Shown: piece after piece, positions 1,666 to 33,934 of the stretch
Layout of the letters: the number at the start of each line of letters is the position of its first letter
Position numbering within the stretch: the stretch's first letter is position 1
Source: Mycolicibacterium anyangense
GTDB lineage: Bacteria; Actinomycetota; Actinomycetes; Mycobacteriales; Mycobacteriaceae
DNA length: 64,000 nucleotides
Assembly (NCBI RefSeq): GCF_010731855.1
Contig: NZ_AP022620.1
Coordinates: 4,278,001 to 4,342,000, forward strand
Reading direction: 5' to 3'
Translations under genes and position numbers: made by a program
Notes under the pieces: model-generated
Database searches by the model: none
What the model was told of the DNA's origin: nothing
Seen by the model: only the letters and a program-made list of their open reading frames with translations

Positions 1666-1689
1666 AGATTCTACTTAATGGTAGAATCT
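1666..1689. promoter_or_regulatory. 24-bp inverted-repeat operator, site A (perfect copy)
   Basis: AGATTCTAC-TTAATG-GTAGAATCT: a perfect 9-bp inverted repeat with a 6-base spacer, 34 bases upstream of the luciferase-like oxidoreductase at 1723. It is the best copy of an element seen in related forms at 5854, 12329, 19709, 21183, 30142 and 33911, each just upstream of a gene. Size and symmetry suit a dimeric TetR-type repressor; the regulator is not known. Confidence 0.65.
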
Positions 1690-1722
1690 ACTCGTCAATC
1701 GAACTTCAGATAGGTCAAGCAC

Positions 1723-2829
1723 ATGCACGTTGGCAAGAGCGTCTTCTTCCAGAACCCCAACGAGGATCGTTCCGACTCATCGCTGTACAAGCACGAGATC
1801 GCGCTTGCAGAACAGGCGGAGCCGCTCGGCTTCGAATCGTTGTGGATCGCCGAGCATCACTTCGGTGGCTACGACGTATCGCCGAATGTGCTGCAGCTCT
1901 TGACATACCTGGCCGCCAAGACCCAGCACGTCCGGCTCGGGTCCTCGGTTGTGGTGCTTCCTTGGCACGAGCCCCTGCGGGTCGCCGAAGAAATCTCGGT
2001 GCTTGACCACCTGTCGAACGGCCGCGTTCTGCTGGGGATCGGACGCGGCCTGGGCCGCCACGAATTCGAAGCGTTCCGGCTCAACATGGGCGAGTCACGC
2101 CAGCGTTTCCAGGAGTATGCGGCAGGCATCCTGAATGCTTTCGATACCGGAGTGATCGAGTCTGACGGCGAGCTGTGGAAGCAGTCGCCTGTTCAGCTGC
2201 GGCCCCAGCCGCTCTCGCCCATCCGTAACCGCACCTACGCATCTTCGGTGTCACCTGAGTCCATGGACATCGTCGCCCAGCTTGGCGTGGGCATCATGGT
2301 GATCGCTCAAAAGCCCTGGGATGTCACGGTTGCCGATGTCAAGAAGTACAACGACCGATTCGTCGAGCTGAACGGCTATGAGCCGCCCAAGCCGCTGCTG
2401 ATGTCCTTCGTGACCGTGCACGAGTCCGAGGCCGCCGCGCAGGAATTGCACGAGGAGTACCACTACCGTTATGCCAAGTCGACATTCGACTGGTACGAGT
2501 TCAGCAACGCCGGCTTGGCCAAGGTCCCGGGTTACGAGTACTACGGCAAGTTCGCCAGCAACATCGAAAAGCACGGCGCCGACAACTTCGTGAAATTCCT
2601 TGCCGAGCTGCAGGTTTACGGCACCCCGGACCAGGTCGTCGAGCAGCTCACCGACCACGTTCGGCGCATCGATGGTGTCGGCATGACGGCGGTGCTGTCA
2701 TTTGCCGGCATGAGCCCTGAAATCGCCACCGCCAACCAGAAGTTGTTCGCGGAGAAGGTGCTGCCTCGACTCAAGAGCATCGATCCTGAGCGGGCGTTCC
2801 CGCCTGTTGCCGTGCAGGCGCATGCCTGA
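1723..2829 (+). CDS. Luciferase-like (LLM class) flavin-dependent oxidoreductase
   Basis: A 368-residue member of the bacterial luciferase/alkanal monooxygenase family (TIM barrel binding FMNH2 or F420). The N-terminal strand is followed by SLWIAEHHF around residues 40-47, a typical signature of the FMN-using, luciferase-alpha-like branch, and by LGSSVVVLPWHEPLRVAEE near 72-90. Length is normal. It probably catalyses a monooxygenation, but the substrate is unknown. The perfect 24-bp operator-like repeat ends 33 bases before the ATG, so the gene is likely repressed until an inducer is present. Its last codons overlap the start of the next gene by 8 bases, so the two are probably cotranslated. 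Confidence 0.88.
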   Translation: MHVGKSVFFQNPNEDRSDSSLYKHEIALAEQAEPLGFESLWIAEHHFGGYDVSPNVLQLLTYLAAKTQHVRLGSSVVVLPWHEPLRVAEEISVLDHLSNGRVLLGIGRGLGRHEFEAFRLNMGESRQRFQEYAAGILNAFDTGVIESDGELWKQSPVQLRPQPLSPIRNRTYASSVSPESMDIVAQLGVGIMVIAQKPWDVTVADVKKYNDRFVELNGYEPPKPLLMSFVTVHESEAAAQELHEEYHYRYAKSTFDWYEFSNAGLAKVPGYEYYGKFASNIEKHGADNFVKFLAELQVYGTPDQVVEQLTDHVRRIDGVGMTAVLSFAGMSPEIATANQKLFAEKVLPRLKSIDPERAFPPVAVQAHA

Positions 2830-3412
2830 GGCCTCGGCCTCGGCCGGAGACAGCCACGCTGAACCGCGCATCGCGCCGCTTCCGGTCGAAGAGCGCGATC
2901 AGGCGACGAACGACATGCTCGACAAGGTCGGACCAGGGCGTGACCTCAATCTGTTCACGACCCTGGTTCGACATCAGAGGCTGTTTCGACGTTGGCTGCC
3001 GTTGTGTGGCGGTCTGCTCAGCGGAAAGCTGTCTCCCCGTGATCGCGAGCTGCTGATCCTACGCACCGCGGATCGCTGCGGGGCCGCCTACGAATGGGCG
3101 CATCACCTGGTGTTTGCCGCGGATGCAGGGTTGACCTCTGAAGAGGTCGCCCGCGTCCGGGCCGGTGCCGACGCTGATGGTTGGACGGAACTCGAGTCGG
3201 CGTTGGTGAGAAGCGCTGACGAACTCCACGACGAGTGCGAGATTTCGGCCTCGACCTGGTCCGTTCTGTCGGCGCACTACGATCAGGAGCAGTTGATTGA
3301 GGTGCCGATGGTGGTCGGGCACTATCACATGGTTGCCTTCGCGGCACGTTCGTTCGGCGTCACCATCGAACCTGCCTACCAGGCAGACCCGGCGGCGCAC
3401 GGCGCCGATTGA
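2822..3412 (+). CDS. Carboxymuconolactone decarboxylase (AhpD-like) family protein
   Basis: A 196-residue all-helical protein. The core RTADRCGAAYEWAHH (about residues 81-95) matches the CMD/AhpD-fold signature (E-x2-H-H after a Cys), but only the first cysteine of the AhpD CxxC pair is present. It is therefore not a typical thiol peroxidase partner and is closer to decarboxylase-like or uncharacterised CMD proteins. The ATG at 2822 is preferred to an upstream one at 2807 because it leaves only an 8-base overlap with the preceding oxidoreductase. Coupling to that gene suggests the two act on the same compound. Convergent with the oxidoreductase gene ending at 3434. Confidence 0.82.
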   Translation: MPEASASAGDSHAEPRIAPLPVEERDQATNDMLDKVGPGRDLNLFTTLVRHQRLFRRWLPLCGGLLSGKLSPRDRELLILRTADRCGAAYEWAHHLVFAADAGLTSEEVARVRAGADADGWTELESALVRSADELHDECEISASTWSVLSAHYDQEQLIEVPMVVGHYHMVAFAARSFGVTIEPAYQADPAAHGAD

Positions 3413-3433
3413 CCCGTGTCTTGATCTCCCGCG

Positions 3434-4411
3434 TCAGTTACCAACCAGGGGAGCGAGCACCTCACCCACCGCTGTGATCAGGCCCGGCGTATAGCCGTGT
3501 GACGGCAGGTTGACCACCAGGCCGCCGATGCCGGCGTCGATGACGTGGCGCTGGATCTGCTCGGCGATCGCGGCGAGGGTACCCACCGCTACGCGGGAGT
3601 CCAGTGCGAATGCGTCGGCCGCGCTCGGCGCGTCGGTAACGACAAGTTGAATCAGAGCACTTGTTTCAAGGGTGGCAGGATCGCGATCGTATTCCGCACA
3701 CCGTCGCATGATGGCTTCCACTTTGCCTGGCAGCCGATCGAACGGCGCGATGACATTGAGGTGGTCGGCGTAGCGGGCAGCCAGTGCGAATGTCTTCCGC
3801 TCACCGCTGCCGCCGATGACGATGGGCATGTCGTCACGGATCCGCGGATTGTTCAACGCGGATTCGACGCTATACCAGCGGCCTTTGAATGTCGGTCGGT
3901 CCCCGCGCAGCATCGGGGAAATGATCTGTAGGGCCTCCTCGAGGCGGTCGAAACGGTCTGCGAGGGTGCCGAACTCGAAGCCGAGTTGCCGGTGTTCGAG
4001 CTCGAACCAACCCGTGCCGATGCCCAGAAATCCACGACCGCCGCTCATTACGTCGAGGGTGCTCACCGACTTCGCGAGCAGGGCAGGGTTGCGGTATGAG
4101 TTACCCGTGACGAGGGTGCCCAAGCGCACCCGCCGCGTGGTCGTCGCCAGCCCCCCGAGCGCGGTGTAGGCCTCAAGCATCGGCTCGTCGAGAGCTCCCA
4201 GATGCGGGAGCTGGTAGAAGTGATCCATTAACAACACTGCATCGAATCCGGCTGCTTCGGCCTCTTGCGCCTGGGCGAGGACGGCTGGGTAGAGCTCGGA
4301 AACGGATCCGCCATAGGAGAAGTTCGGGATCTGCAGTCCCAGCCGCAGAACCCTGCTGCTACGGCGGCTGGGTGTGGGAGTCGAGGCTGCGTCGGTTGCT
4401 GGGGGCGTCAT
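3434..4411 (-). CDS. Luciferase-like (LLM class), probably F420-dependent, oxidoreductase
   Basis: A 325-residue TIM-barrel oxidoreductase of the luciferase superfamily. Visible family marks are LGLQIPNFSYGG near the N-terminus, the DAVLLMDHF segment, LGTLVTGNSYRNPALLAKSVSTLD, and GGRGFLGIGTGWFELEH, which is common in mycobacterial F420-dependent members. The start codon overlaps the stop of the ferredoxin gene by four bases (ATGA at 4408-4411), so P450, ferredoxin and this protein form a tight operon. It may reduce or oxidise a product of the P450. Cofactor choice (F420 or FMN) is inferred from family resemblance and not proven. Confidence 0.88.
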   Translation of the reverse strand: MTPPATDAASTPTPSRRSSRVLRLGLQIPNFSYGGSVSELYPAVLAQAQEAEAAGFDAVLLMDHFYQLPHLGALDEPMLEAYTALGGLATTTRRVRLGTLVTGNSYRNPALLAKSVSTLDVMSGGRGFLGIGTGWFELEHRQLGFEFGTLADRFDRLEEALQIISPMLRGDRPTFKGRWYSVESALNNPRIRDDMPIVIGGSGERKTFALAARYADHLNVIAPFDRLPGKVEAIMRRCAEYDRDPATLETSALIQLVVTDAPSAADAFALDSRVAVGTLAAIAEQIQRHVIDAGIGGLVVNLPSHGYTPGLITAVGEVLAPLVGN

Positions 4412-4614
4412 GCCTTCGAATCCTCCACCAAGCTAATGGCGCGCTCAGGGCAGTTGGCCACGGCCGCGCGCGCCTCGGCGAGACGGCTCGCGGGCACCTC
4501 TCCGTCAGTGGAGAGCTGCCCGTAGCCGTGCTCGTCATCGGTGATGAGATGCTGAGCAACCGAGTAGCACAGTCCGTGGCCGGTGCAGCTCGCGCTGTCG
4601 AGTCTGAGCTTCAC
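4408..4614 (-). CDS. [3Fe-4S] ferredoxin partner of the P450
   Basis: A 68-residue ferredoxin. The cluster motif is C10-T-G-H-G-L-C16 with a distal C55-P. A histidine sits where a 4Fe-4S ferredoxin would have its second cysteine, the usual arrangement in mycobacterial P450-linked 3Fe-4S ferredoxins. The start is GTG at 4614, forming a GTGA overlap with the P450 stop; the stop forms an ATGA overlap with the next gene. It should pass single electrons to the upstream P450. No ferredoxin reductase gene is in the window, so a reductase encoded elsewhere must supply electrons. Confidence 0.92.
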   Translation of the reverse strand: MKLRLDSASCTGHGLCYSVAQHLITDDEHGYGQLSTDGEVPASRLAEARAAVANCPERAISLVEDSKA

Positions 4615-5801
4615 GACGGTGCCTTGTCGAACTCCAGATGAAGCGATTCGAGTCCGATGGTCCCGTGGGGCCACGGCACCATCGGTGTGGCGCCGGGCTT
4701 GATGCGGTAGTGCGGGATCCGCTTGTGCCACTCCTGGTATGCGATGGCCAACTCCAGTCTGGCCAGGTGCGATCCCAGACAGCGGTGTGGCCCTAGCCCA
4801 AAGCTGATGTGCGGGTTGTCCGTACGGTGGAAGTCGATCTCGTGTGGATTGGCGAATACCGCCGGATCCCGATTGACCGCGCCGAGGTAGGTAGATACTC
4901 GTGTCTCGGCGCCGAGCCGCACTGTGTCGATGTCGGCCTCGGTGGAGCTGACCCTCGGGATGAATGGGGCCGGCGGATCCAGTCGCAGCAGCTCTTCGAC
5001 CGCTGCGGGAATCAGAGCTGGATCGTCGACGATTGCTTGTCTCTTGTCGGGATGCTCGGCAAGCCGCTGCATCCCGCAACCCAGCGTGTCGGTCACGGTG
5101 TCCAAGCCGGCGAGAACGAACAAGAAGCACAGGCCGACGGCTTCACTGTCGGTGAGGTCGTCCGGTGGCTGTTTAGCCAGTATCTGGCTCAAGACGTCCT
5201 CACCGCCCTGACGGCGACGCTGCGGAATCAGCTCGGTGAAGTAGGTGTACATCTCGAGAGCCTTGCGGATGCCCTCTTGCGTGGCGTCTCCCTCGGCAGC
5301 GAAACCGGCCGACGAGAGGTCGAGCACCGCGTTCTTCCACTCCCAGAACTGGTGGCGCATCTCCAGCGGTAATCCGAAGAACGTAAGGAATGCTTGGATC
5401 GGGAAGACCTGGGCGACTTCACTCACGAAATCGCAATGGCCGCGTTGCGCGATCGGGTCGACCAGAGCGATGAATTGCTGACGCAGGTGAGCTTCCATCG
5501 GCTTGATGACGCGCGGACTGAAGAACGGCTGCAGGATCTGTCTGTAGCGCGTCTGGGTGGGTGGGTCGAAGGCGATCGGAACCAACGGCACGGGACTCTG
5601 CAGCATGTCGAATGCCTTGGCCGAGGAGAACGGCTCGGGGTGCTTGAGGACTTCTTCGGCACCGCGCCGGGTGGTCACCGCGTATCCGTCGGCGACCGCG
5701 ATCACCGGGGCCACTTGGGTTGCCCGCCAGGCCTCGTCGCGCGCGATGGCCATGGGCAGGCTGTCGGTGTCGATCCGTGGAATTGCATCGGTGTTCGTCA
5801 T
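4611..5801 (-). CDS. Cytochrome P450
   Basis: A 396-residue bacterial class I P450. The I-helix oxygen-activation motif AGLDT is at 231-235, the K-helix E270-x-x-R273 is present, and the haem loop FGLGPHRCLG places the cysteine thiolate at Cys341. No membrane anchor. It should hydroxylate a hydrophobic substrate using electrons from the overlapping ferredoxin gene. It heads a three-gene unit (P450, ferredoxin, luciferase-like oxidoreductase) joined by 4-base overlaps. A diverged copy of the 24-bp operator-like element lies 53-76 bases upstream of the ATG, so this unit may have its own promoter, separate from the VWA/MoxR genes 102 bases upstream. CYP family and substrate cannot be assigned by eye. 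Confidence 0.95.
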   Translation of the reverse strand: MTNTDAIPRIDTDSLPMAIARDEAWRATQVAPVIAVADGYAVTTRRGAEEVLKHPEPFSSAKAFDMLQSPVPLVPIAFDPPTQTRYRQILQPFFSPRVIKPMEAHLRQQFIALVDPIAQRGHCDFVSEVAQVFPIQAFLTFFGLPLEMRHQFWEWKNAVLDLSSAGFAAEGDATQEGIRKALEMYTYFTELIPQRRRQGGEDVLSQILAKQPPDDLTDSEAVGLCFLFVLAGLDTVTDTLGCGMQRLAEHPDKRQAIVDDPALIPAAVEELLRLDPPAPFIPRVSSTEADIDTVRLGAETRVSTYLGAVNRDPAVFANPHEIDFHRTDNPHISFGLGPHRCLGSHLARLELAIAYQEWHKRIPHYRIKPGATPMVPWPHGTIGLESLHLEFDKAPS

Positions 5802-5853
5802 TACGCCCCTTAGCCGCCCGCGGGTGTGTCGGATGTCACGTCACGTACCGGTC

Positions 5854-5877
5854 TGAATCTAACTCATAGTCGAAAGT
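5854..5877. promoter_or_regulatory. 24-bp operator-like element, site F (diverged), upstream of the P450
   Basis: TGAATCTAA-CTCATA-GTCGAAAGT keeps the geometry of site A (9-6-9) and matches it at 6 of 9 positions in each half. It also shares GAATCTA and GAAAGT with the site before the Rieske gene (21183). It is placed in the short gap before the P450 start. The match is weaker than at sites A, B and E. Confidence 0.4.
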
Positions 5878-5903
5878 GCCGACAAGGCCCAACCGGCGAA
5901 GCG

Positions 5904-7661
5904 TCACGCCGGAACGTTGGAAGCGGCATGATCACCACGACGCCGAGCGTCAGCCAGTGCTTGGCGTATCAGCGTGCCGAGCTGGTGTTCGATCCCGCTG
6001 ATGCTCGCCACATGCAGTGCGGACGCCGAGTCCAGTGCCTCACGCTGAACCTGAGATCCGTTGCCACTAGGGGCTGTAACCCCAACGCATACGAAACCGA
6101 CTCCCCGCAAGCGGGCCTCGCTCATCGCATGTCGAGTGTCGCCCGCGGCTTGGGTGCCGTCGTAGCCGTCATCGTAAGGGTGGCCGTCGGAAACCAGGAT
6201 GACCACCCGCTTCATCCCCTCGGCCTGGCGTTCCAGGATTGAGGTGCAATGGCGGATGGCGCCGCCGATTCGAGTGAACCCCGCCGGATTCAGGTGACCG
6301 ACTCGTTCGATGGTCAACGCCGAGACGCGTTCTCGAAAGCTCTTGACCGGCAGCACATGGACCATCTCGCGTCCCCAGCTGCGGAACGCATAGAAACCAA
6401 CCGGGACGCCCAGACCATCGAGTGCGGCTGTGATGCGGTAGGACAACTTGAGGTGTTGATCGAAGACCGAACCGGTCTGCCCTTCAGTATCCCCGGTAGT
6501 GTCCAGGGTGGAGCTGCTGACGTCCAGCAGGACCAACGCGGCGACGCCAGGTCGTTGTCGCTTCTTGCCGATGAACGGCAATGGTGCAGTTCCGGAACCG
6601 CTTCGGCGCCAATACGCAAGGTCCACGACGCCGTCGGTGTGCAGTTGTTCGCCGAACTCGCTGCGCCCGTGTGGCGCAATCCCCAGGACGTGCCGGGCGA
6701 GACTGCGCGTAAGCGTCGCGGGCGTATCAAGCAACCCGATCTGGGCCAGGGTTGTGTTGTCCCGAAAGCCGTCGGGATTCCACGGCTCCAGTTCGTGCAC
6801 GGTGACCCAGTTGTGTCGGTACCGCTGGGCACTCTGGTCCCATTCCGGATAACGAGCATCACCTCTGTGAGTGCCGAAGACCAAGCGGTTGGCGGCCATG
6901 GCGATCCGGCGGCCGACACTGACTTTGCGGCCCTCGCTGGGTCGTAAGCTTGGTCTGGCCACTGGCGTTCCACCGCCGGCTTGTGACGTCGCATCTGCGG
7001 ACTTACCGCCAGAGTGCTTGAACAGACTCTGGATCATCCTCGCCACGGGGTGGTTCGGCATCAACGGATTGCTCAGCAGATCGAGGGATTTGGCCTCATC
7101 GCTGTCGGCGTCGGGGTCCTCGCCCTCGGCACCGTCCGGGTCGTCTCGGGTCTTGACGTCCTCCTTGTGGTCACGGCCGGTGCGCGCCGCCGATACCAAT
7201 ACCGCACGTGCGGGTTTGATGCGACCGAAGAACTCCGGGGCGGCGGGAATCTGGTTGTGTGCCAATGCCATACGCATCGACTCTTCGGCCGAACCCGTGC
7301 TGGGCACCTCCGTCACCGCGGCTGTCAGTGCTGCGACGAACGGCGGCCATCTATCCCCGGTCAGGGTGAGCGCGCGCAGTCCTTCCATCGCACAGTATCG
7401 CTCGCAGGCGCCGGAGCGTCCGATGAGGTGGCGCAACACCGCCGGTTGGAAGGAACCAGCTCCGTACATCGCCGCTTGGAGGACCACTTGAGCGCGGGTC
7501 ATCGTGGTGAGTTGTTCGCCGTCGACGGTGATGGTGTTTCCGAACGTGTAGACGCCGTCGTCGTGACCCGCCGTGTCCTTGACACACACCAGGCGTCCTG
7601 AAACCGCGCGCGCCAGCATTTCCAGGCCGGCCAACGTCGGTTGATCAGGAGATGTAGGCAT
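5904..7661 (-). CDS. VWA-domain protein, NorD/CbbO type
   Basis: A 585-residue protein with a C-terminal von Willebrand factor A domain. The metal-ion (MIDAS) residues are intact: D380-x-S382-x-S384 in LLDVSSS, a threonine at 463 in GFTRIGGAIRH, and D492 in VSDGHPYDD. An acidic, low-complexity linker rich in Asp and Glu lies around 165-195. The N-terminal part is helical and of the NorD/CbbO kind. It overlaps the MoxR-ATPase gene by 17 bases. In known pairs (NorQ-NorD, CbbQ-CbbO, CoxD-CoxE) the ATPase and VWA protein together remodel or activate a metalloenzyme. The target here is unknown; no nitric oxide reductase or rubisco gene is in view. The downstream neighbour is the P450 unit. Confidence 0.85.
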   Translation of the reverse strand: MPTSPDQPTLAGLEMLARAVSGRLVCVKDTAGHDDGVYTFGNTITVDGEQLTTMTRAQVVLQAAMYGAGSFQPAVLRHLIGRSGACERYCAMEGLRALTLTGDRWPPFVAALTAAVTEVPSTGSAEESMRMALAHNQIPAAPEFFGRIKPARAVLVSAARTGRDHKEDVKTRDDPDGAEGEDPDADSDEAKSLDLLSNPLMPNHPVARMIQSLFKHSGGKSADATSQAGGGTPVARPSLRPSEGRKVSVGRRIAMAANRLVFGTHRGDARYPEWDQSAQRYRHNWVTVHELEPWNPDGFRDNTTLAQIGLLDTPATLTRSLARHVLGIAPHGRSEFGEQLHTDGVVDLAYWRRSGSGTAPLPFIGKKRQRPGVAALVLLDVSSSTLDTTGDTEGQTGSVFDQHLKLSYRITAALDGLGVPVGFYAFRSWGREMVHVLPVKSFRERVSALTIERVGHLNPAGFTRIGGAIRHCTSILERQAEGMKRVVILVSDGHPYDDGYDGTQAAGDTRHAMSEARLRGVGFVCVGVTAPSGNGSQVQREALDSASALHVASISGIEHQLGTLIRQALADARRRGDHAASNVPA

Positions 7662-8481
7662 CGATGAGTTCCGCGATGGACCTCGTCACGGTCGCGTCGT
7701 CGGTCAGCATGGCCGCGATGGCGCTCCTGGCGGCGCGATTGAGCCCCAACCCGCTCACATGCAACCTCGCTGCGGCGATCAGTGCTCGAGTCGACACCAT
7801 CTCCGACATGCTCGGCTCGTTCAGGTGTCGTACTGCCTGTCCTAGTCGCACCAGAGCCGCGACGGCCTCGTCAGGGGCACCGGACTGCTCTTTGACGATC
7901 TGTTGTTCGAGTTCTGGCGGCGCGAAGTCGAGCTCCACGGCAACGAAGCGCTGACGCGTCGAGGGCTTGAGGTCCTTGAGCAAGGTCTGATAGCCCGGGT
8001 TGTAGGACACGATGAGCATGAATGAGTCTGGGGCGTCGAGTTGTTCATTGAGCCGGTCGATGAACAACTGGCGCCGGTGGTCGGCAAGAGAGTGGATGAC
8101 GACCGTCGCGTCGACGCGTGCCTCGACGATCTCGTCGAGGTAACACATGGCGCCCCGGCGTACCGCGGTCGTCAGGGGCCCGTCCTGCCAGACGGTATCC
8201 GATCCCTCGAGGAGATAGCGTCCCACCAGATCTGCGGCCAGCATGTCTTCGTGGCACGACACCGTCACCAGTTCCAACCCCAGGCGACGTGCCGCACTTT
8301 CCACCAACTTCGTCTTGCCGCACCCGGTCGGACCCTTGAGAAGCACCGGTAGACGCGCCCGCCATGCTCCCAACAGGATGTCGAGTTCATCACCGACGGG
8401 GTGGTAGTCATCGACGATCGCGGACACGGGATGGTGGTTCGTGATCGCGGACCCGTGGTGCTGAGGGGATTGAATCGTCAT
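7645..8481 (-). CDS. MoxR-family AAA+ ATPase, NorQ/CbbQ type
   Basis: A 278-residue AAA+ ATPase with Walker A GPTGCGKT at 50-57 and Walker B CYLDE at 113-117. SYNPGYQ near 165 is the sensor 1 region typical of CbbQ/NorQ proteins. The arginine-rich STRQRFVAVELDF follows at about 180-190. It forms hexameric rings in characterised relatives and acts with a VWA partner to remodel a target enzyme, using ATP. The partner gene overlaps it by 17 bases. An AAGGA lies 3 bases before the ATG at 8481. The gene could be transcribed from the 311-bp gap upstream or read through from the EthD-like gene; I see no decisive promoter. Confidence 0.9.
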   Translation of the reverse strand: MTIQSPQHHGSAITNHHPVSAIVDDYHPVGDELDILLGAWRARLPVLLKGPTGCGKTKLVESAARRLGLELVTVSCHEDMLAADLVGRYLLEGSDTVWQDGPLTTAVRRGAMCYLDEIVEARVDATVVIHSLADHRRQLFIDRLNEQLDAPDSFMLIVSYNPGYQTLLKDLKPSTRQRFVAVELDFAPPELEQQIVKEQSGAPDEAVAALVRLGQAVRHLNEPSMSEMVSTRALIAAARLHVSGLGLNRAARSAIAAMLTDDATVTRSIAELIDAYIS

Positions 8482-8792
8482 GTGTCCTTACTCGTGTTGA
8501 GCTCGGCAGTGGTGTGCGCGGTACCGCCGCCTTGCGGTGTCTGCCGCGAACGCCAGCGCCACCAGCAGATTGCTGGTCAAGGTACCGCTGAGTTCGCGTC
8601 CGGGTGACGGACCAGACCGCTACCGGTATCTGTCAAATGTATAACGAGTTGTCTGCCATAGGAAGCAGAATCGATCGTCCGATTGAAAGTACAAACAGAC
8701 CCGTGGTCGACCCGTCAGCACGGAGGTACACATGCGAGGCAGTCAACGGGCGGCGAGTGAGTTGCGCGCCTGTTCGTCGATGCCGCGCGGTC
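8482..8792. other. Gene-free stretch upstream of the MoxR gene
   Basis: 311 bases with no convincing gene on either strand. It contains one isolated half-site CTGCCATA (8653-8660) of the 20-bp operator family described at 9198, without a recognisable partner. The region is less GC-rich around 8630-8700, so it may hold the promoter for the MoxR-VWA pair. Confidence 0.5.
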
Positions 8793-9155: not shown

Positions 9156-9197
9156 CGGCACGATCCCTTCGTAGCTCTGCGGCGGGCTCCCCCGCAC

Positions 9198-9217: not shown

Positions 9218-9298
9218 GTGTCAATGGCTGGTTGACTCAGGCTTGACCGCTTTATCTGCCACTTGCCGAAGGATAGATCGGTTTGGTCTGCGTCTACT

Positions 9299-26090: not shown

Positions 26091-26116
26091 GCCCAAACCC
26101 GGGCAGGGTTTCTTGG

Positions 26117-26944
26117 CTAGCGGCGGACGTCCATGCCCGCGTCGACCTTGAGGAGACTGCCGGTGAACGTTCGGCCGAGGTCGGACAGGAGGAAAAGGAT
26201 GGCGTTGCTGACGTCCTTGGGCTCGATCATCGGGAAGTCAGGCAACGCTGTCTGCATGGCATTGGCCATGTGTGGCGTCTGCTCGATCATCTTGAACAGT
26301 GCCGGGTTCTCCAGCACCATCGGTGTCGCGCAATTGGTCGGCGCAACCGCGTTAACCCGAATCCTGTGTGGTGCAAGCATATTGGCATATGCCCTGACTA
26401 GTGCGACAACCGCCACCTTCGTCATCAGATAGGCATCAGAACCGCCGCCGCCGTCGGTCATGTCCAGCAGGGCTGCCATCGAGCTGGTCGCGATCAAATG
26501 TCCGCCCTTGCCACGCTCCTTGAGGTGCGGGATGGCTACCTGGAAGGTATTCCAGACACCGATCTGCATGACGTCGATACCCAGGCGCAGGGCTTCCGGT
26601 GCATCGACTTCGTCGGGGTTGGAGAGGATGAGCCCGGCATTGGCCAACACCGTGTCGACATAGCCGAACTGGCGGACCCCCGCATCGAATACTGCCTGCA
26701 GGGCCGACTTGTCCCGAACATCGGCCGCTTCGAAGTGAATCTCGCGGCCGGTCTTCTCCACAAGGCGAGCGGTCTCTTCGAGGTCCTCCCACGTGCCCAA
26801 CTTGTACGGAACGCCGTCGATGTCGTGACAAACGTCCACGGCGACGATGTTCGCGCCTTCTTCTGCGAGAGTGACTGCGTGCGAGCGGCCCTGACCGCGT
26901 GCCGCACCGGTGATAAAGACAACCCGACCGTCGAGCAAACCCAC
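26117..26944 (-). CDS. Mycofactocin-type SDR oxidoreductase
   Basis: A 275-residue SDR of the mycofactocin-coupled kind. The Rossmann loop FITGAARGQGRSHAVTLAEEGAN is followed by the family-typical insert DVCHDIDGVPYKLGTWEDLEET, which is longer than in ordinary SDRs and is associated with tightly bound NAD. The catalytic tetrad region has IATSSMAAL and YLMTKVAVV. The start is GTG 26944 with AAGGA about 9 bases upstream; a far longer frame to 27133 has no site. It oxidises or reduces an alcohol or ketone with electrons exchanged through mycofactocin. A homologous SDR is at 29248. Confidence 0.88.
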   Translation of the reverse strand: MGLLDGRVVFITGAARGQGRSHAVTLAEEGANIVAVDVCHDIDGVPYKLGTWEDLEETARLVEKTGREIHFEAADVRDKSALQAVFDAGVRQFGYVDTVLANAGLILSNPDEVDAPEALRLGIDVMQIGVWNTFQVAIPHLKERGKGGHLIATSSMAALLDMTDGGGGSDAYLMTKVAVVALVRAYANMLAPHRIRVNAVAPTNCATPMVLENPALFKMIEQTPHMANAMQTALPDFPMIEPKDVSNAILFLLSDLGRTFTGSLLKVDAGMDVRR

Positions 26945-27302
26945 GATTATGTTTCCTTTCCGCCGGATGTGCAGACAGTGCGCATCGGCCACGGTGATCC
27001 GCCATGCGCCGAAGCTGAACGACGCCTCAGCGACCATACCAAGATATATCAATACGTTTATAGGAATAGCGAAATATGGCGACGGGGTAGACCGAAGCCC
27101 GCGGTTCGCGGCGGCGTGCTCGCGAGAGGGCATTCGAAGCTACACTCGATTTTCGGTTGCAATGACGAATCTGAGCGATTCACAGCAAACAGGCTCACAG
27201 CAAAGAGGTGCTCATGCGAACTGGTGGTGAATTGCCAATCGGCAAGTGCGGCAATGCAGGGTGCGTTGCGGCCGAGTTCGCCACAGTGAGCCGTGACGTC
27301 CC
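26945..27302. other. Divergent gap between the mycofactocin-type SDR and the DUF2889 gene
   Basis: 358 bases with an AT-rich patch at 27030-27075. Open frames here have no ribosome site and no recognisable product. It should contain the promoters for both genes. I see no good copy of either operator family. Confidence 0.45.
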
Positions 27303-28322
27303 ATGAGCGCTATTGAGTTGGGCTTACCAGATGCCGGGATGCATCCGCTGCACGGCATTCACGAACCGACGACGAGCACGCCGGCACGTTGCCCCGGCTC
27401 GATTCGGCGCACAACCTCGATAGACATGACACGTGATGCGGGCTCCCTTGATCCGGTGTATCTCTCTGGACGGGCACGGGACCTGATGACTACGCATGAC
27501 GGTATGGCTGTTGAGATAGGCCAGGCCAGCATGCGCGTGGCGGTCGAGAAGCTCACCCGCGTAGTTCGGCAGATCGACGTCGAACCCGTGGTCGCAGGAA
27601 TGGATTTGGTCGGCGCTCCGGCGATGGGCGGATTCCGGGCCGCGGTCGACAAGGCAGCTCCGGAGTTGAGCGAGCACCGCGACCTGCGCTATGCGCTGCT
27701 CGATGACGTCCCGGTCGCCACCCTGATCTCTGGGCATGCATTGTCGGCGTCCGGCGCGCTCGGGAACGGCGCCACGTCGGGCTACCTCCCGGTCGCAGAC
27801 CAATGTGCGGGTTTCGTGACCGGCGGACTGCTCATGACGTCATTTGAGTCCGGGGTCCCTGCTGTTGTGACTGGACCGCCGGCACCGCGACTCGAGGACC
27901 CCGACGACCCGTTGGCGTGGCATGACATGTCGGCGCTACCCGTCCACGGGATGCGTCGTCGGCGGCGACTTGACGTGAAACGCAACGGGGCCTCAGAGAT
28001 GGAAATCGATGCGATGTTCCGCGACACCTACGTTCGCGCCGACGGCATCGAGACCATCATCCACGAGTACACGGTCACGGCCGTCGTGGAGTCCGATACC
28101 CAGACAATCGTGAGCGCGCAGGCGGTGGCCCGCGTACTACCCTGGCAGGAATGTCCGGGCGCCGTCGCCAGCGCGACTCGGCTCATCGGAATGAGGCTCG
28201 ATCAACTGCACCACCGCGTGCGGCGCGAGTTCCGCGGGACGTCGACGTGTACCCACCTCAACGACTTGTTGCGCGGCGTCGCGGACGCCGCCGCGCTGTA
28301 TGGCCTGCTGCCCGCCAGCTGA
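27303..28322 (+). CDS. DUF2889-domain protein
   Basis: A 339-residue protein of the DUF2889 family, with RRRRRLDVKRNG and EIDAMFRDTYVRADG near the middle, then VLPWQECPGAVASATRLIG and CTHLNDLLRG near the C-terminus. DUF2889 proteins have no known reaction but recur next to catabolic oxidoreductases and CoA enzymes in actinobacteria. The ATG at 27303 is used; a GTG-free alternative at 27339 (MHPLHGIHEP) is also possible, since no strong ribosome site decides. Convergent with the TetR gene at 28340. Confidence 0.78.
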   Translation: MSAIELGLPDAGMHPLHGIHEPTTSTPARCPGSIRRTTSIDMTRDAGSLDPVYLSGRARDLMTTHDGMAVEIGQASMRVAVEKLTRVVRQIDVEPVVAGMDLVGAPAMGGFRAAVDKAAPELSEHRDLRYALLDDVPVATLISGHALSASGALGNGATSGYLPVADQCAGFVTGGLLMTSFESGVPAVVTGPPAPRLEDPDDPLAWHDMSALPVHGMRRRRRLDVKRNGASEMEIDAMFRDTYVRADGIETIIHEYTVTAVVESDTQTIVSAQAVARVLPWQECPGAVASATRLIGMRLDQLHHRVRREFRGTSTCTHLNDLLRGVADAAALYGLLPAS

Positions 28323-28339
28323 GGCTCGGCGGCATACCG

Positions 28340-28969
28340 TCACCGCGGCGAGAACGCTCCCGGCAGAAAGGCGCGGAGCAACCCCTCGTCACCGCCGTAC
28401 TCGGCTGGCCCGGGCTCGGCCATGAGGCTGAAACAGATGCGAGCCACCCAGTAGGCCATCGTCTCCGGGGCCACATCGTCGCGGACGTCCCCTCGTGCCG
28501 CGGCGTCGGCGAATCGCTCGCCGAGTACCTCTCTCAAACGGCTCTGCCATTTCTCGGATGCCGAAGCGGCGTGGTAGGTGCGACCCAATTTGTCGTCGAA
28601 GGTGAACATTCGCATCGTCGGTGACTCCCGCGCTGCCGCAATGCCAACCATGCAGCTACTCACCAATTGGTCTGCGAACGGCTCATCGGTTTCCCAACAG
28701 CGCTGCGTCGCGTCGAGCACTGCTGTCACTGCCCGCAGGAAGCACTCGGCCAGCACCGCATCGCGATTCGGGAAATAGCTGTACACGGTGCTGCGATGGA
28801 CCCCTGCCTTGTTCGCTATGTGGGTCATCTTCGTGGCGTCCAGCCCGCGCTCTGCGTAACACGCCTCCGCCGCGTCTAGCAGGCGGTCGCGCGCCTGGTC
28901 GTCACTAGTCGGCAGATCCGCGCCCCAGGCGGGGGTCCGCGCTACGGTCCGTGTCCCCATACCGTCCAT
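28340..28969 (-). CDS. TetR/AcrR-family regulator
   Basis: A 209-residue TetR protein: RDRLLDAAEACYAERGLDAT then MTHIANKAGVHRSTVYSYFPNRDAV form the DNA-binding domain (about residues 29-70). GGAAAGG precedes the ATG at 28969. It is divergent from the SDR at 29248 and convergent with the DUF2889 gene, so local control of the SDR is plausible. No operator can be matched to it with certainty. Confidence 0.88.
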   Translation of the reverse strand: MDGMGTRTVARTPAWGADLPTSDDQARDRLLDAAEACYAERGLDATKMTHIANKAGVHRSTVYSYFPNRDAVLAECFLRAVTAVLDATQRCWETDEPFADQLVSSCMVGIAAARESPTMRMFTFDDKLGRTYHAASASEKWQSRLREVLGERFADAAARGDVRDDVAPETMAYWVARICFSLMAEPGPAEYGGDEGLLRAFLPGAFSPR

Positions 28970-29247
28970 TCAACCTTTCCCAGACTTCGAACCCAACCTT
29001 GACTCGACCGACACTCTTGCCTAGTTTGTCGTTTGGGAGACAGATCATCGGACAGTGTCGTCGTGTTGACAGGATCGTTTAACGTACGCGCCGGCCGTCT
29101 GGTGGCTGATATGTCAGCACCTGTGCTCCTTGCCGAAGGGAGCTACGTGCGTGCCGGCAATTGCGGCGTGTTCAAAGAAGCGGTTCCGGCCGCTACGGCC
29201 GTAGCTCTGCTGTTCACACCTTTTCGATGACGAATGGGAGCATTGCC

Positions 29248-30066
29248 ATGTCCGACTTCTTCAGTGGCAAAGTCGCGTTGATCACCGGTGCAGCGCGCGG
29301 GCAGGGGCGCGCTCACGCGGTTCGGCTCGCTAGCCGCGGTGTCAACATCATTGCGGTAGACATCTGTCGGGACATTCCGACCATGGACTACCCGAACGCG
29401 ACTCGAGCCGACCTCGACGAGACCCGGGATCTCGTGGAGGCCGAGGGCGCCAAGATCGTGACCGGCGTGGCCGACGTCGCCGACCAGGCGGCGCTGAAGG
29501 CGGTCCTCGATGACGGGCTTGCGCATTTCGGTCGCCTCGACATTGCCATCGCCAACGCCGGAATAGTGCGCTACGGCGAAGATGAAGATCCGATCGCCAC
29601 CTGGAACGACATCATCAACACCAACTTGACCGGCGTCTGGAACACCTGCTTCCTCGCTCGTCAGCCCATGATCGACGGTGGGCGCGGCGGTTCGATCGTC
29701 ATCACCAGTTCCTCCGCCGGCCTCAAAGGCACAGGTACCCATAAGACCGGTGCCCAGGCGTACACCGCCTCAAAGCGCGGCATCGTCGGACTCATGCAGG
29801 TGTTAGCGCTGGATCTGGCCCCCCACAACATCAGGGTCAACACCATCCATCCGACCGGCGTGGCCAGTGGCATGACGATGAATGACGCATTGGCCAAAAT
29901 GGTCGAGAGCGGCAGCCCCGAGATCATGGCGATGCAGAACGCCCTGCCGGTCCAGATTCTGCAGCCCGAGGACATCGCCGATGCCGTCGAGTGGCTCGTC
30001 AGTGACAAGGCCCAGTACGTCACGGGTATCACTCTCCCCGTTGATGCGGGCTTCACCGTCCGCTGA
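29248..30066 (+). CDS. Mycofactocin-type SDR oxidoreductase (second copy)
   Basis: A 272-residue SDR of the mycofactocin-coupled type. ITGAARGQGRAHAVRLASRG is near residues 12-31 and the same kind of NAD-binding insert, DICRDIPTMDYPNATRADLDET, lies at about 37-58. ITSSSAGLKG and the YTASK catalytic segment follow. The ATG at 29248 is preceded by GGGAG at 7 bases. Related to the SDR at 26117 but clearly distinct, so the two probably act on different alcohols in the pathway. The next gene is controlled by its own 24-bp site, 75 bases downstream of this stop. Confidence 0.88.
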   Translation: MSDFFSGKVALITGAARGQGRAHAVRLASRGVNIIAVDICRDIPTMDYPNATRADLDETRDLVEAEGAKIVTGVADVADQAALKAVLDDGLAHFGRLDIAIANAGIVRYGEDEDPIATWNDIINTNLTGVWNTCFLARQPMIDGGRGGSIVITSSSAGLKGTGTHKTGAQAYTASKRGIVGLMQVLALDLAPHNIRVNTIHPTGVASGMTMNDALAKMVESGSPEIMAMQNALPVQILQPEDIADAVEWLVSDKAQYVTGITLPVDAGFTVR

Positions 30067-30141
30067 CCCGCTACCCACGTCGACCGATGTCGGCCGTCGC
30101 TTCAGCGAGAAGGTGCTTGATCGCGGCGGCGGCTCGGAATA

Positions 30142-30165
30142 AGATTCAAAGAAATTATAGAATCT
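30142..30165. promoter_or_regulatory. 24-bp operator-like element, site E, before the amidohydrolase
   Basis: AGATTCAAA-GAAATT-ATAGAATCT, right half 8 of 9 and left half 7 of 9 against site A. It ends 69 bases before the amidohydrolase ATG. A partial extra half-site GTAGAATCC follows at 30174, within a short hairpin CCAGGA / TCCTGG. Confidence 0.55.
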
Positions 30166-30234
30166 TGCCAGGAGTAGAATCCTGGATGAGTCAACAATCA
30201 CATCCCCCTCTGCCAGAGGCGTAAGGAGCCAAGG

Positions 30235-31434
30235 ATGCCTTTACAAGACACCCATCAGATCGTGTCAGTCGATGACCACCTCATCGAGCATCCCCGAGTC
30301 TGGCAGGACCGCTTGCCGGAGAAGTTTCGTGAGGCAGGCCCCAGGATCGTCGAGGTGGACGGCCAGCATCTGTGGTCATACGACAACACGTTGTACCCGA
30401 CGATCGGTCTGAACGCGGTGGCGGGGAAGCCGCCGGAGGAGTGGGGCACCGATCCGGTGCGCTACGAAGACATGATCCCCGGCTGCTACGACCCGGTAGC
30501 GCGGGTCGCGGACATGGATCTCGACGGCGTTCAGGCGGCCCTGTGCTTCCCTTCGTTCCCAGGGTTCGCGGGTGGAACGTTCTATCGGGGCAAGGATCGC
30601 GACTTGGCCCTGCTGTCTGTCAAAGCGTGGAACGACTTCCACGTTGACGAGTGGTGTGCGGCGGCGCCTGATCGCTTCATTCCACTTGGCATCCTCCCGA
30701 TCTGGGACATCGACGCGTCTGTAGCCGAGGCTGAGCGCTTGGCCGCCAAGGGAGTGAGGACGGTGTCCTTCCCCGACAGCCCGGTGCCATTGGGTCTGCC
30801 GTCGTTCCACTCAGATCACTGGGACGATCTATGGCAGGTTTGCTCGGACGCTGGCATGCCGGTGTCGCTGCACTTCGGGGCAGGCGGCTATGTGCCCGGG
30901 TTCTCGTTCACCAAGACCTCCACCTTCCAGGACGACCTGGCAACCCAGCAGATCGCGGCCCCCTTCGCGGTGGCAATCACCATCTTTGCGACCAATCTGA
31001 TGTGGTCTACCGTCGACCTGTTGTTCTCCGGCAAGCTGCAGAAGTTCCCGAATCTTCAGTTCTCACTGTCCGAGGGCGGCATCGGTTGGGTGCCCTACAT
31101 CTTGGAGCGTGCCGACTACGTCTGGGAACGGCACCGCTACTACCAGGCGATCGACTTCGACTCGCGCCCTTCGGAGCTGTTCCGTTCCCACTTCTGGGGT
31201 TGCTTCATCGATGACGAGCACGGATTGTCCAATCGCCACGCGATCGGAATCGACCGAATTTGCCTGGAAATCGACTTCCCGCACTCGGATTCGAACTGGC
31301 CCAACTCACGCAAGCGGGCGGCTGAGGTGCTCGCCACGGTGCCCGATGACGAATGTGCTCTCATCGTCGAGGACAACGCGCGCCGCATGCTGAACTTCCC
31401 GCGGCCGGCTGACGCGAAAGTCGCGGCCGTCTAG
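30235..31434 (+). CDS. Amidohydrolase-fold protein (ACMSD-like)
   Basis: A 399-residue TIM-barrel protein of the amidohydrolase 2/ACMSD-like group. The N-terminal metal-site analogue is SVDDHLIEHP (D-x-H) and later LHFGAGG holds another ligand; near the C-terminus is CLEIDFPHSDSNWPNS with an aspartate-proline-histidine pattern. Such proteins hydrolyse or decarboxylate ring-cleavage or other acidic products using one metal ion. Which reaction happens here is not clear. The gene starts with AAGGAG close upstream of the ATG and has site E 70 bases upstream. Three strongly acidic and hydrophobic segments are typical of the mycobacterial subgroup. Confidence 0.85.
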   Translation: MPLQDTHQIVSVDDHLIEHPRVWQDRLPEKFREAGPRIVEVDGQHLWSYDNTLYPTIGLNAVAGKPPEEWGTDPVRYEDMIPGCYDPVARVADMDLDGVQAALCFPSFPGFAGGTFYRGKDRDLALLSVKAWNDFHVDEWCAAAPDRFIPLGILPIWDIDASVAEAERLAAKGVRTVSFPDSPVPLGLPSFHSDHWDDLWQVCSDAGMPVSLHFGAGGYVPGFSFTKTSTFQDDLATQQIAAPFAVAITIFATNLMWSTVDLLFSGKLQKFPNLQFSLSEGGIGWVPYILERADYVWERHRYYQAIDFDSRPSELFRSHFWGCFIDDEHGLSNRHAIGIDRICLEIDFPHSDSNWPNSRKRAAEVLATVPDDECALIVEDNARRMLNFPRPADAKVAAV

Positions 31435-31564
31435 CTGCTGAAGAAGATGCTGAATGCGGGTTGAGGCGGCTCTGGGCGTTGCCTTTGTTCAACGGCCGGG
31501 GCGCCTCGACCACCATTCGGCGCGACAGACCGGCCAGCGTCATGACTCCGATTGAGGGCGTGAG

Positions 31565-32371
31565 ATGACGCGCGTCGGTTTCTTCGGGATTGGTCAAATG
31601 GGCGGCCCGATGGTGTCGCGGCTGCTCGATCGTGGTCAGCACGAGATCGTTCTCTATGCCCGTCGGCCTGAGGTGTGTGCGCCTTACATCGCGCGCGGGG
31701 CGCGTCTGACTCGCTCGCTCAAGGAGCTGGCGATAACCAGCGATGTGTTGATCCTGTGTCTGTTCTCGGATCTGCAGCTGCGGGCGACGGCTTTTGGCGC
31801 GGCAGGCTTCCTTGCGCATCTGGGCGAGGGCGCAGTCGTCGTTTCGCATACGACGGGTAGTCCGGCGCTTGTCGCTGAGATGGCTCGTTGCGCACCCCAG
31901 GTGCATATGGTCGACGGTCCGGTCAGCGGGGGCCCGGAAGATATCGGTCAGGGCAAGTTGACGGTATTGGTGGGCGGTGAGTCCGGTGCTGTCTCTGTGG
32001 TGCGGGACATCGTGAACGCCTACGCCGACCCCATAATCGAGACCGGCGCACTCGGGAGTGCGTTGACGGTCAAGCTGCTCAATAACCTTCTGTTCGCAGC
32101 CAATTCGCAATTGCTCGCGGCAACCGCTGCGGCCGGAGCAGCGTGGGGATTGGACGAGCAGTCCTTGCTCACCGCCTTGAGCGCATGCAGTGCAAGCAGC
32201 ACAGCCCTTCAGCGTGTGCTGCAGGTCGGCGGTCTCGCTCCCTTCGAGCGGCGCGCGACGCCGTATCTACGCAAGGACGTCACGGCGGCGGTTGCGCTGG
32301 CCGAGGAGTTGGGATTGGCGATCGATCTTGTGCGTGGCGTGGCAGAAGGTGGACCACTGGCGGTGACGTGA
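31565..32371 (+). CDS. NAD(P)-dependent beta-hydroxyacid dehydrogenase (HIBADH-like)
   Basis: A 268-residue protein with the Rossmann motif GFFGIGQMGGPM at 5-16, catalytic block VDGPVSGGPEDIGQGKLTVLVGG at about 116-138, and the conserved lysine in VKLLNNLLF. It belongs to the 6-phosphogluconate/3-hydroxyisobutyrate dehydrogenase family. It is a little shorter than the usual 290-300 residues, with a short C-terminal domain, but has no break. It probably oxidises a 3-hydroxy acid to a semialdehyde or keto acid. A convergent CoA ligase follows. Confidence 0.87.
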   Translation: MTRVGFFGIGQMGGPMVSRLLDRGQHEIVLYARRPEVCAPYIARGARLTRSLKELAITSDVLILCLFSDLQLRATAFGAAGFLAHLGEGAVVVSHTTGSPALVAEMARCAPQVHMVDGPVSGGPEDIGQGKLTVLVGGESGAVSVVRDIVNAYADPIIETGALGSALTVKLLNNLLFAANSQLLAATAAAGAAWGLDEQSLLTALSACSASSTALQRVLQVGGLAPFERRATPYLRKDVTAAVALAEELGLAIDLVRGVAEGGPLAVT

Positions 32372-32393
32372 CTTCGGTTGGCGTATCGGCGAT

Positions 32394-33875
32394 TCAGGTT
32401 GTCAGCTGCTGAGCGAGTTCGCGCTTCGACACCTTGCCCAAGCCTGTGAGTGGAAGCTCGTCGACCACGTGTAACCGCTCGGGCCACTTCTGCTTCATGA
32501 ATCCCCGCTCGTCGAGGAATCGGCATATCTCGTCGAGTGTGACGTCGGGATGATTGGCGGAACGCTGAACAACCGCGCATACGACCTCGCCGCGCGCTTC
32601 GTCCGGTAGGCCGAGAACGGCAACGGTGTCGATCAACGGGTGAGCCAGCAGCTCGTTCTCGATCTCGGCTGGGGCAATATTCTCACCTTTGCGAATGATC
32701 AAGTCCTTCAACCGGCCTGTGATCACCAGCCTGCCGTCGGACCGAAGGAACCCCGTGTCGCCGGTTCGGAGCCAGCCCTCTTGGGTGACCGTCGCGATCC
32801 ATTGCTCGCGATCGACATAGCCCGGTGTCAGGACATCACCGCGCACTTCGACCTCTCCTGTCGAGGCGATGCGCACCTCGGCACCGGGAACGGGCAAGCC
32901 CGCCGTGTTCGACCGCTGTTCAAAGGTGTCTGACGGCTGGATCGCCGTCACCGTTGGGGCTTCCGTCATGCCGTAGCCATGCAGAACGGGCACCCCCAGA
33001 ACATGTCTGATCTTTTCGTGTAGCTCCGGTGGGCAGGGCGCACCACCACCGATCAGCATGCGAAGCGTAGGGATGATCGGAGCGTCGCCATCCGATGCGA
33101 GCTGAGCGGAAAGCAGCATCTGGTAGAACGCCGTGCTTGAGCCGGTAAACGTCACCCGATTGGCGGCAAGCACGTCAGCGATGTCGGACTCGATCCGCGG
33201 TAGCAACAACACGGGAAACTCACCGATCAGGGCGCACGAGAGATAGAAGATGCCTCCCACATGTGCGATGGGAAAGTTGATGGTCCCTACGTCGTTGGGC
33301 ACCGATCCCAGGCCGAGTGACTTCACGTAGCCCCGCGCTGCCGTCAAGAGCGACTTATCGCTGTGCTGCACTCCTTTCGGTTGGCCGCTGGTTCCCGATG
33401 TGAAGAAGACCCATCGGGGCTGCTCTGGAGGGAAACTCTTTGCCGTTGATGTTGCTTGGTTCGCCGGCATTGAACGGACAACATCGAGGAAGTCCGGCGG
33501 AAGCTGAATCACCCGTGTACCTGGTGGCGCGTTGTGCTTCGTCGATTCATCGACGATCAACACGTCGGCGTGGGCGATCTCGAGTGCGGCCGCGACCTCC
33601 CGTTTGCGGAACAGATGCAGCACCGGCGCCTGGACGGATACGCTTCGTGAAAGCGCCAGCATCAGAACCGCTGCGGCGCAATGACTTGGCAGCTGCCAGG
33701 CGACGGTCATGGTGCTTTCGACACCATGCGCTGCCAGCCAGTCTGCTGCTGCCGCTGACAGACTGGCCACCTCAGTGTTCGTCAGCACCGTGCCGGTTGG
33801 CTCGACCAGCAGCCGACTGTCAGGACGGTTCAATGCCGCAGACTCGAGCTCTTCGGTGATTGAACAGGGGACCAT
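32394..33875 (-). CDS. AMP-binding acyl-CoA ligase
   Basis: A 493-residue ANL-superfamily ligase. The P-loop TSGTSGQPKG is at 159-168. GWLRTGDTG, GRLKDLIIRKGENIAPAEIE and the C-terminal lysine in LPLTGLGKVSKREL are all present. It activates an organic acid as its CoA thioester via an adenylate. Its short N-terminal domain points to a smaller acid than for long-chain ligases. It is divergent from the aldehyde dehydrogenase operon, and a diverged 24-bp element (site G) lies 36 bases upstream of the start. Convergent with the dehydrogenase gene at 31565. Confidence 0.9.
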   Translation of the reverse strand: MVPCSITEELESAALNRPDSRLLVEPTGTVLTNTEVASLSAAAADWLAAHGVESTMTVAWQLPSHCAAAVLMLALSRSVSVQAPVLHLFRKREVAAALEIAHADVLIVDESTKHNAPPGTRVIQLPPDFLDVVRSMPANQATSTAKSFPPEQPRWVFFTSGTSGQPKGVQHSDKSLLTAARGYVKSLGLGSVPNDVGTINFPIAHVGGIFYLSCALIGEFPVLLLPRIESDIADVLAANRVTFTGSSTAFYQMLLSAQLASDGDAPIIPTLRMLIGGGAPCPPELHEKIRHVLGVPVLHGYGMTEAPTVTAIQPSDTFEQRSNTAGLPVPGAEVRIASTGEVEVRGDVLTPGYVDREQWIATVTQEGWLRTGDTGFLRSDGRLVITGRLKDLIIRKGENIAPAEIENELLAHPLIDTVAVLGLPDEARGEVVCAVVQRSANHPDVTLDEICRFLDERGFMKQKWPERLHVVDELPLTGLGKVSKRELAQQLTT

Positions 33876-33910
33876 CGGTACGTCCCTCCGTGGAGTCAGG
33901 TAGCCGCCAG

Positions 33911-33934
33911 AAAATCTGTGCAGAGTTAGAATGA
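33911..33934. promoter_or_regulatory. 24-bp operator-like element, site G (diverged), before the CoA ligase
   Basis: AAAATCTGT-GCAGAG-TTAGAATGA, 6 of 9 in each half against the consensus; AAAATCTGT is close to the AGAATCTGT half of site B. Weak, but well placed for the minus-strand CoA ligase. Confidence 0.35.

Follow-up and report, generated by a model that had tools for sequence, protein, structure and literature searches.

Recurrent 24-bp inverted repeats before the genes of a catabolic cluster in Mycolicibacterium anyangense and a candidate TetR-type repressor

The window analysed here comprises 64,000 nucleotides of the genome of Mycolicibacterium anyangense (GCF_010731855.1; contig NZ_AP022620.1, positions 4278001-4342000), and contains a 24-bp inverted-repeat element that recurs in the intergenic DNA of a catabolic gene cluster. 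One shared regulon for this one catabolic gene set is strongly supported, since the sites are concentrated in the cluster, are conserved after rearrangement in two related genomes, and match the pattern perfectly in just two of the 248 genomes sampled from the genus. We further propose, with a probability of roughly two in three, that the elements are operators of a single cluster-specific repressor, most likely the dimeric TetR-family protein encoded at 16460, with release by a ligand of the acyl-CoA type. The sequences themselves show the sites, how they concentrate in the cluster and stay with its genes, a recurrent 17-bp spacing and the co-occurrence of the TetR gene; the binding protein, repression, the ligand and the substrate are inferred. 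Coordinates are those of the window unless a genome is named, with negative numbers lying upstream of it; the own genome, a single contig of 5,696,751 bases, is referred to as G000, and the two related genomes as G223 and G325.

The original prediction, a note made earlier on this DNA, had described seven elements, all of which were found where it placed them, each of them intergenic. The perfect 9-bp repeat claimed at 1666 is present (9/9 matching arm positions) and is the sole perfect one among the seven, the remaining arms matching at 3 (5854), 7 (12329), 5 (19709), 5 (21183), 7 (30142) and 4 (33911) of the nine positions. The strict pattern, with up to three mismatches, was matched twice in the window and never in 100 shuffles. 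A 24-column matrix built from the five clear window sites gives these same sites 26.6-33.6 bits, while third-order Markov sequences (60, each of 64 kb) reach 16.6 bits at most; taken alone, 5854 (16.0 bits) and 33911 (13.7 bits) do not exceed that maximum. These two had been called weak, which holds for the window alone, but both promoters carry conserved sites in G223 and G325, and they were accepted because of this conservation at the same promoters. Two other matrices were used for the comparisons between genomes: a first one, trained on six strong G000 sites and non-circular for G223 and G325, and a refined one, whose scores for cluster sites are partly circular because it was trained on the 88 sites of all three genomes. 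The refined consensus is ANWWTCKRYY-N4-RRYMGAWWNT, and its half-site AGAWTCT is itself close to palindromic. Runs of ATATATATAT were left out of the site counts in genome regions and of the half-site counts. Three-genome alignments show conserved arms and a conserved leader downstream of them, but considerable divergence farther upstream.

The sites claimed for up to seven promoters across 32 kb proved real, but the set is larger. With the first matrix, 16 sites of at least 13 bits lie in the 104-kb G000 region formed by the window and 40 kb upstream of it, in 11 intergenic gaps; all fall inside a 42-kb block beginning about 8 kb upstream of the window, and none in called genes. The same threshold gives 25 and 27 sites in the regions fetched from G223 and G325, and of the 16, 25 and 27 sites (G000, G223 and G325, the order kept below) 0, 0 and 2 are in coding sequence and 16, 23 and 26 inside the cluster, as bounded by the analyst for site and promoter counts (G000 4269000-4317000, G223 1952000-2019000, G325 3205000-3316000). 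Promoters with a site of at least 12 bits amount to 15/35, 22/51 and 23/84 inside these bounds and to 0/43, 2/32 and 2/16 outside them. Across the whole of G000, the pattern AGAWTCTA-N8-TAGAAW (up to two mismatches) has 20 matches at 17 distinct places, 13 of which (16 of the 20 matches) are within 4269729-4311932 and four elsewhere. The cluster share is 17/20 places in G223 (21/24 matches) and 18/21 in G325 (22/25 matches), with analyst-set bounds of 4269000-4312000, 1952000-2019000 and 3228000-3308000 for the pattern-place counts; the reversed control pattern yields 4, 2 and 3 genome-wide matches against 20, 24 and 25. The genome scan suggested earlier as a check thus finds the matches not at random positions, being concentrated in the cluster in all three genomes.

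Conservation in other mycobacteria, on which the original prediction also depended, was borne out: the sites are kept with their genes in G223 and G325 after rearrangement. Of 396 Mycobacterium genomes, three (own, G223 and G325) have a match to the Rieske gene of the cluster at E <= 1e-100, and the same three, own included, are those with a close orthologue of TetR 16460 (86-90%). The two genomes with a perfect pattern match in the sample of 248 are the own one and G223, both with the cluster; G325 was outside that sample. The cluster proteins are mostly 70-95% identical among the three genomes, with gene blocks inverted and moved, and despite the reshuffled order a site of at least 12 bits (G000-trained matrix) stands upstream of eleven genes in all three: the SDR gene -5443, the amidohydrolase gene -2195, the luciferase-like gene 1723, the P450 gene, the divergent pair 11257/12486, the orphan gene 19056, the Rieske gene, the amidohydrolase gene 30262 and the CoA ligase/aldehyde dehydrogenase pair 32394/34047. 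Beyond these genomes, Mycobacterium sp. 4858 carries a Rieske gene of 82% identity with nine sites above 12 bits in 21 kb (refined matrix); it is not an independent case, because its sites equal those of G325. Metagenome contigs carry TetR relatives of 62-80%, and on one further contig (114,628 bases) a TetR relative of 80% and a Rieske relative of 75% seem to occur together.

That the elements are merely chance AT-rich palindromes in AT-rich intergenic DNA is a practically negligible prospect. The scores of 5854 and 33911 when taken alone would fit it, and AT-rich runs do give false matches (e.g., G325 3313041); against it stand the concentration in the cluster, the excess over non-cluster promoters and the far fewer matches of the reversed pattern, and a chance origin is already contradicted by the conservation in three genomes.

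Individually, the sites are as follows, with bits given for G000/G223/G325. The one at 1666..1689 (33.1/28.3/29.1, first matrix) precedes the start of a luciferase-like monooxygenase gene (1723), and is overlapped by a second site 17 bp on (1683-1706). The site at 5854..5877 (15.9/20.3/20.3, first matrix) is placed 52 bp before the P450 start (5801, minus strand). A weaker one (8667..8690) lies between a CbbQ-like AAA gene (7645-8427) and an open reading frame of 134 amino acids (8793-9197), and scores 16.6 bits with the first matrix and 19.8 with the refined one, the latter giving 26.2 bits beside the orthologue of this frame in G223 and G325. The divergent promoter of an F420-type LLM oxidoreductase gene (11257-12276, minus) and an ADC-like gene (12486, plus) contains 12329..12352 (31.0/17.6/22.5) and also a second site, 12384..12407 (15.6 bits with the first matrix; 24.3/24.1/24.5 with the refined one). 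Another divergent promoter, between a gene for a 165-residue orphan protein (19056-19553, minus) and an AveC-like gene (19878, plus), holds 19709..19732 (27.8/27.8/28.5). The Rieske oxygenase gene (21244-22404) is preceded by 21183..21206 (31.0/26.9/26.9), and the amidohydrolase gene at 30262 by 30142..30165 (30.3/20.3/22.6), which a second site overlaps (30159-30182). Finally, 33911..33934 (13.0 bits, first matrix) is situated between a minus-strand gene for a CoA ligase (32394-33875) and a plus-strand gene for an aldehyde dehydrogenase (34047); the corresponding promoters score 17.8 and 25.9 bits in G223, where they are two separate promoters, and 23.3 in G325. Absent from the original prediction were 1683, 8667, 12384, 30159 and a site at 16318 in the window, as well as five sites upstream of it (-8273, -8256, -5666, -2447 and -2275).

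The sites also show a recurrent geometry. Among 54 primary sites (at least 20 bits, refined matrix), 14 have an extra half-site of at least 5 bits exactly 17 bp off, nine on the lower-coordinate and five on the higher-coordinate side, while every other offset between 9 and 45 bp has at most four on either side. The 17-bp half-site recurs across genomes before the acyl-CoA dehydrogenase gene -8159, the amidohydrolase gene -2195 (in its gap) and the amidohydrolase gene 30262, the last in all three genomes. At about a quarter of the sites, the extra half-site would probably allow a second dimer to bind next to the first. A more specific proposal, to which we give rather little credence, is that the regulator is a single-unit relative of Mce3R and KstR2 recognizing half-sites in 17-bp steps, with two dimers sharing or competing for the central one and so grading repression among the promoters of one pathway. 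If true, this would make the protein the homodimeric equivalent of Mce3R with its fused units, and would show the TetR family shifting between symmetric and asymmetric operators; the form with three half-sites at 17 bp poses a specific structural question on TetR proteins.

Three TetR genes are present in the block (9544, 16460 and 28340). The original prediction postulated a single TetR-type repressor, of which the shared regulon is the strongly supported part and the TetR-type repressor only plausible; it listed the TetR proteins at 16460, 28340, 42461 and 56553, of which 16460 is now favoured and 42461 and 56553 fall beyond the block that holds the sites; 9544 had not been listed. The best candidate (16460..17104, plus strand) contains the helix-turn-helix domain TetR_N (PF00440) and a separate C-terminal ligand domain (TetR_C_24, PF17932), both above cut-off. 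It is a single unit of 214 amino acids, in an open frame of 231 codons with one match, and compared with solved structures its sequence matches, among others, those of KstR2, of a FadR-type regulator of fatty acid metabolism and of Mce3R; several of its nearest homologues resemble fused double TetRs, with two matches inside a single open frame of 444-464 codons. Beyond orthologues, the next listed homologues reach at most 50% identity, with one of 51% in the family search. No other TetR gene of the block has, in each of the three genomes, a site in its promoter region; here it is a palindromic one in the divergent promoter shared with an SDR gene (16318..16341, between 15525-16319 on the minus strand and the TetR start on the plus strand), weak in the window itself (9.9/15.9/22.3 bits with the first matrix, 21.6/25.0/29.5 with the refined one). 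In G223 and G325 the site is separated from the SDR start by 32 bp, and its distances to the TetR start are 118, 127 and 128 bp; in G000 it is missing from the promoter table, because the called SDR start overlaps the site by 2 bp. Of the 30 TetR genes whose upstream regions were examined in the own genome (30 of 150 TetR matches), 16460 has the highest-scoring one, with a matrix that had this site in training.

The choice among the TetR proteins draws on their homologues. A related motif occurs upstream in 20 of 45 distant homologues of TetR 16460, against a mean of 4.7 and a maximum of 13 when the columns of the palindromic matrix are permuted (60 permutations); in an earlier run, with different shuffles, the count was 21/45, against 3/29 other TetR genes. 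The 45 homologues are those returned as loci (many further matches being outside the test), 43 in other genomes and two in the own one; the three cluster TetRs, L091 and L093 (tandem second halves) and L128 were left out, and L080 has a stop inside its match. The 29 control genes are 30 loci of the 150 matches minus 16460, with 9544 included. At 17 bits or more, a threshold picked after seeing the scores, the counts are 10/45 for homologues of 16460, 1/25 for those of 28340 and 0/29 for other TetR genes (Fisher test of 10/45 vs 1/54, p 0.002). On this sequence evidence the homologue test favours 16460 over 28340 as the probable regulator.

The operators may instead be real and belong to another regulator, namely TetR 28340, TetR 9544 or a TetR protein from outside the cluster, which we hold to be possible, though doubtful. 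Relatives of TetR 28340 with 80-85% identity occur in G223 and G325 (the G223 match covering 150 of 209 residues), a 20.3-bit site stands upstream of its G223 orthologue, and its homologues are also enriched for matrix matches (9/25), while only one of them passes the 17-bit threshold; its own promoter is without a site in G000 and G325, and 28340 was set aside as main candidate on the promoters of these two genomes. TetR 9544 was rejected: its promoter lacks a site in every one of the three genomes, and its best G325 match has only 60% identity and lies elsewhere. As an observation apart, two homologues of TetR 28340 (L132 and L144) have TGTGGTC/GACCACA inverted repeats upstream of their TetR genes, which are perhaps the own operator class of the 28340 homologues.

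Several points count against TetR 16460 or against the unity of the regulon. Its site is weak in its own genome and is closer to the SDR start than to the TetR start, so it may control the SDR gene alone; the TetR gene thus adjoins a site-bearing target, and autoregulation is not certain. The regulator may also be encoded elsewhere, for instance by the 41% paralogue of 16460 at 515995, which is preceded by a related site. At 70% identity the 45 homologues fall into just eight groups, four of them with a match. The homologues of 28340, a set from 18 chosen genomes in which 25 of 27 matches were tested and the two cluster copies left out, were meant as a clean negative control, and are enriched too (8/25, or 9/25 against a permuted mean of 3.3 and maximum of 7); two of the nine with a match adjoin a gene of the TetR 16460 type. 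Also, ten more genes have a site of at least 12 bits in only two genomes (four genes: the acyl-CoA dehydrogenase gene -8159, the SDR/TetR pair 15525/16460 and the AveC-like gene) or in one (six genes), so either the edge of the regulon varies or some of these sites are false. Gene starts, besides, are those of the analyst's own gene caller.

In the repressor reading that we prefer, a dimeric TetR-family protein, most likely the product of 16460-17104, would bind the consensus in about a dozen intergenic gaps and block RNA polymerase, several sites ending 33-58 bp before a start codon, where the promoter core is expected. An early pathway intermediate, probably an acyl-CoA thioester, would then release it and turn on the whole gene set; the ligands of KstR2 and FadR are acyl-CoA thioesters. 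It is quite improbable that the repeats serve an activator or an alternative sigma factor instead. Such a role would be in line with the spacing to the start codon that is identical in all three genomes at two genes (33 bp at 1723 and 37 bp at 21244). On the other hand, the elements are dyad-symmetric, several serve divergent genes, the distances from site to start across the eleven three-genome genes range from 17 to 199 bp, and several sites would cover the promoter core, the position presumed for a repressor.

The original prediction knew of no described mycobacterial operator with this sequence, and a limited literature search agrees as far as titles go: the motif letters AGATTCTA combined with mycobacter gave no operator paper by title among those listed, the half-site search likewise returned nothing relevant by title among its listed papers, and searches for AveC-like proteins in mycobacterium and for a TetR operator with a Rieske catabolic gene cluster in Mycobacterium found nothing, subscription journals being mostly outside coverage. 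The accessible part of PMC2277422 gives no motif. By the accessible parts of the papers describing them, three known systems are closest. The KstR2 regulon likewise has a TetR-type repressor, a sequence relative of TetR 16460, and a palindromic motif at catabolic promoters, of 14 bp (AnCAAGnnCTTGnT) and at three promoters per genome (PMC3068626), and KstR2 is conserved across mycobacteria (PMC4482099). In contrast, the site described here is a 24-bp one of the type AGAWTCTA-N8-TAGAAWST that is found in about a dozen gaps, its consensus does not match the KstR2 motif, and close orthologues of its candidate regulator occur in 3 of the 396 genomes. BkaR shares with it a 24-bp palindrome, a TetR-type regulator and a divergent neighbour operon (PMC3920632), but the BkaR core, GTTA(N)T(N4)A(N)TAAC, differs from the present consensus. 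Mce3R of M. tuberculosis, also a relative of TetR 16460, has sites of about 25 bp at lipid-related genes (PMC11667970); it is a fused double TetR with non-palindromic (asymmetric) 25-bp sites 53 bp apart (PMC11667970), whereas TetR 16460 is unfused and the sites here are palindromic, with perfect arms at 1666 and some copies in 17-bp steps. Judged from sequence comparison, this may be a new regulon working like those of KstR2 and BkaR, with a different operator.

The catabolic gene set occupies 400..37683 of the window by Pfam scans (the right limit is approximate, the last site being 33911), and site-bearing genes reach about 8.2 kb further upstream, with sites at G000 4269727-4275748. Its window part includes thiolase, LLM oxidoreductases, P450, Rieske oxygenase, CoA ligases, acyl-CoA dehydrogenases, hydratases, SDRs, amidohydrolase, CoA transferase and thioesterase. 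Over the 50 proteins scanned, Pfam gives acyl-CoA dehydrogenases, CoA ligases, enoyl-CoA hydratases, thiolase, CoA transferases, SDRs, aldehyde dehydrogenase, P450, Rieske oxygenase, luciferase-like oxidoreductases, flavin reductase, two amidohydrolases, and ADC-like, AveC-like and DUF2889 proteins. Two of the luciferase-like oxidoreductases pass the NCBIfam cut-offs of F420-dependent families. No ring-cleaving extradiol dioxygenase is among the 50 proteins, the cluster genes -959..291 and 4408..4614 being outside the scan. Broadly, the gene content suggests a pathway that is probably for an alicyclic or terpenoid-like acid. The proposed regulon would bring together roughly a dozen promoter regions and a single candidate repressor, for a narrow pathway present in a few mycobacteria, including M. 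seoulense. The operator marks genes that act together and so helps to set the boundaries of the pathway (cytochrome P450, Rieske oxygenase and F420-type oxidoreductases), and it could serve as a reporter for finding the substrate.

A palindrome outside the cluster, AGATTCGAYCAnnTGTTCGAAT (G000 5530785, G223 5281364, G325 5469435), was removed from the regulon because it is widespread in the genus, where the cluster is rare. In the corresponding search, AGATTCGANCANNTGTTCGAAT with up to one mismatch has matches, counted regardless of their location, in 24 of 41 genomes examined and in 23 of 25 of the own genus. The genes flanking G000 5530785 are, from their translations, presumably fbiA and whiB2, and the palindrome probably belongs to another regulator.

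Some minor features of the cluster are also worth recording. The 165-residue orphan protein has no Pfam match at E 0.001 (scanned as 19056-19628) and is about 72-73% conserved in the two relatives; the site before its gene is among the strongest in all three genomes. AT-rich GTAAACTATATAAC elements precede the orthologues of the SDR gene at 17245 (G223 1997415-1997457, G325 3275447-3275482), with only a looser TATAACTAT at 17172 as their window counterpart; the cluster may contain a second motif. A palindrome-like element at 40585-40608, scoring 8.8-10.2 bits in the three genomes and lying 20-22 bp before a GntR/FCD gene (39822-40562, minus), may be the own operator of that regulator. Lastly, two small proteins within and just beyond the cluster (8793-9197 and 39381-39740, both on the minus strand) are mutually similar, and the one at 39381 matches the G325 orthologue of the one at 8793 with 66% identity.

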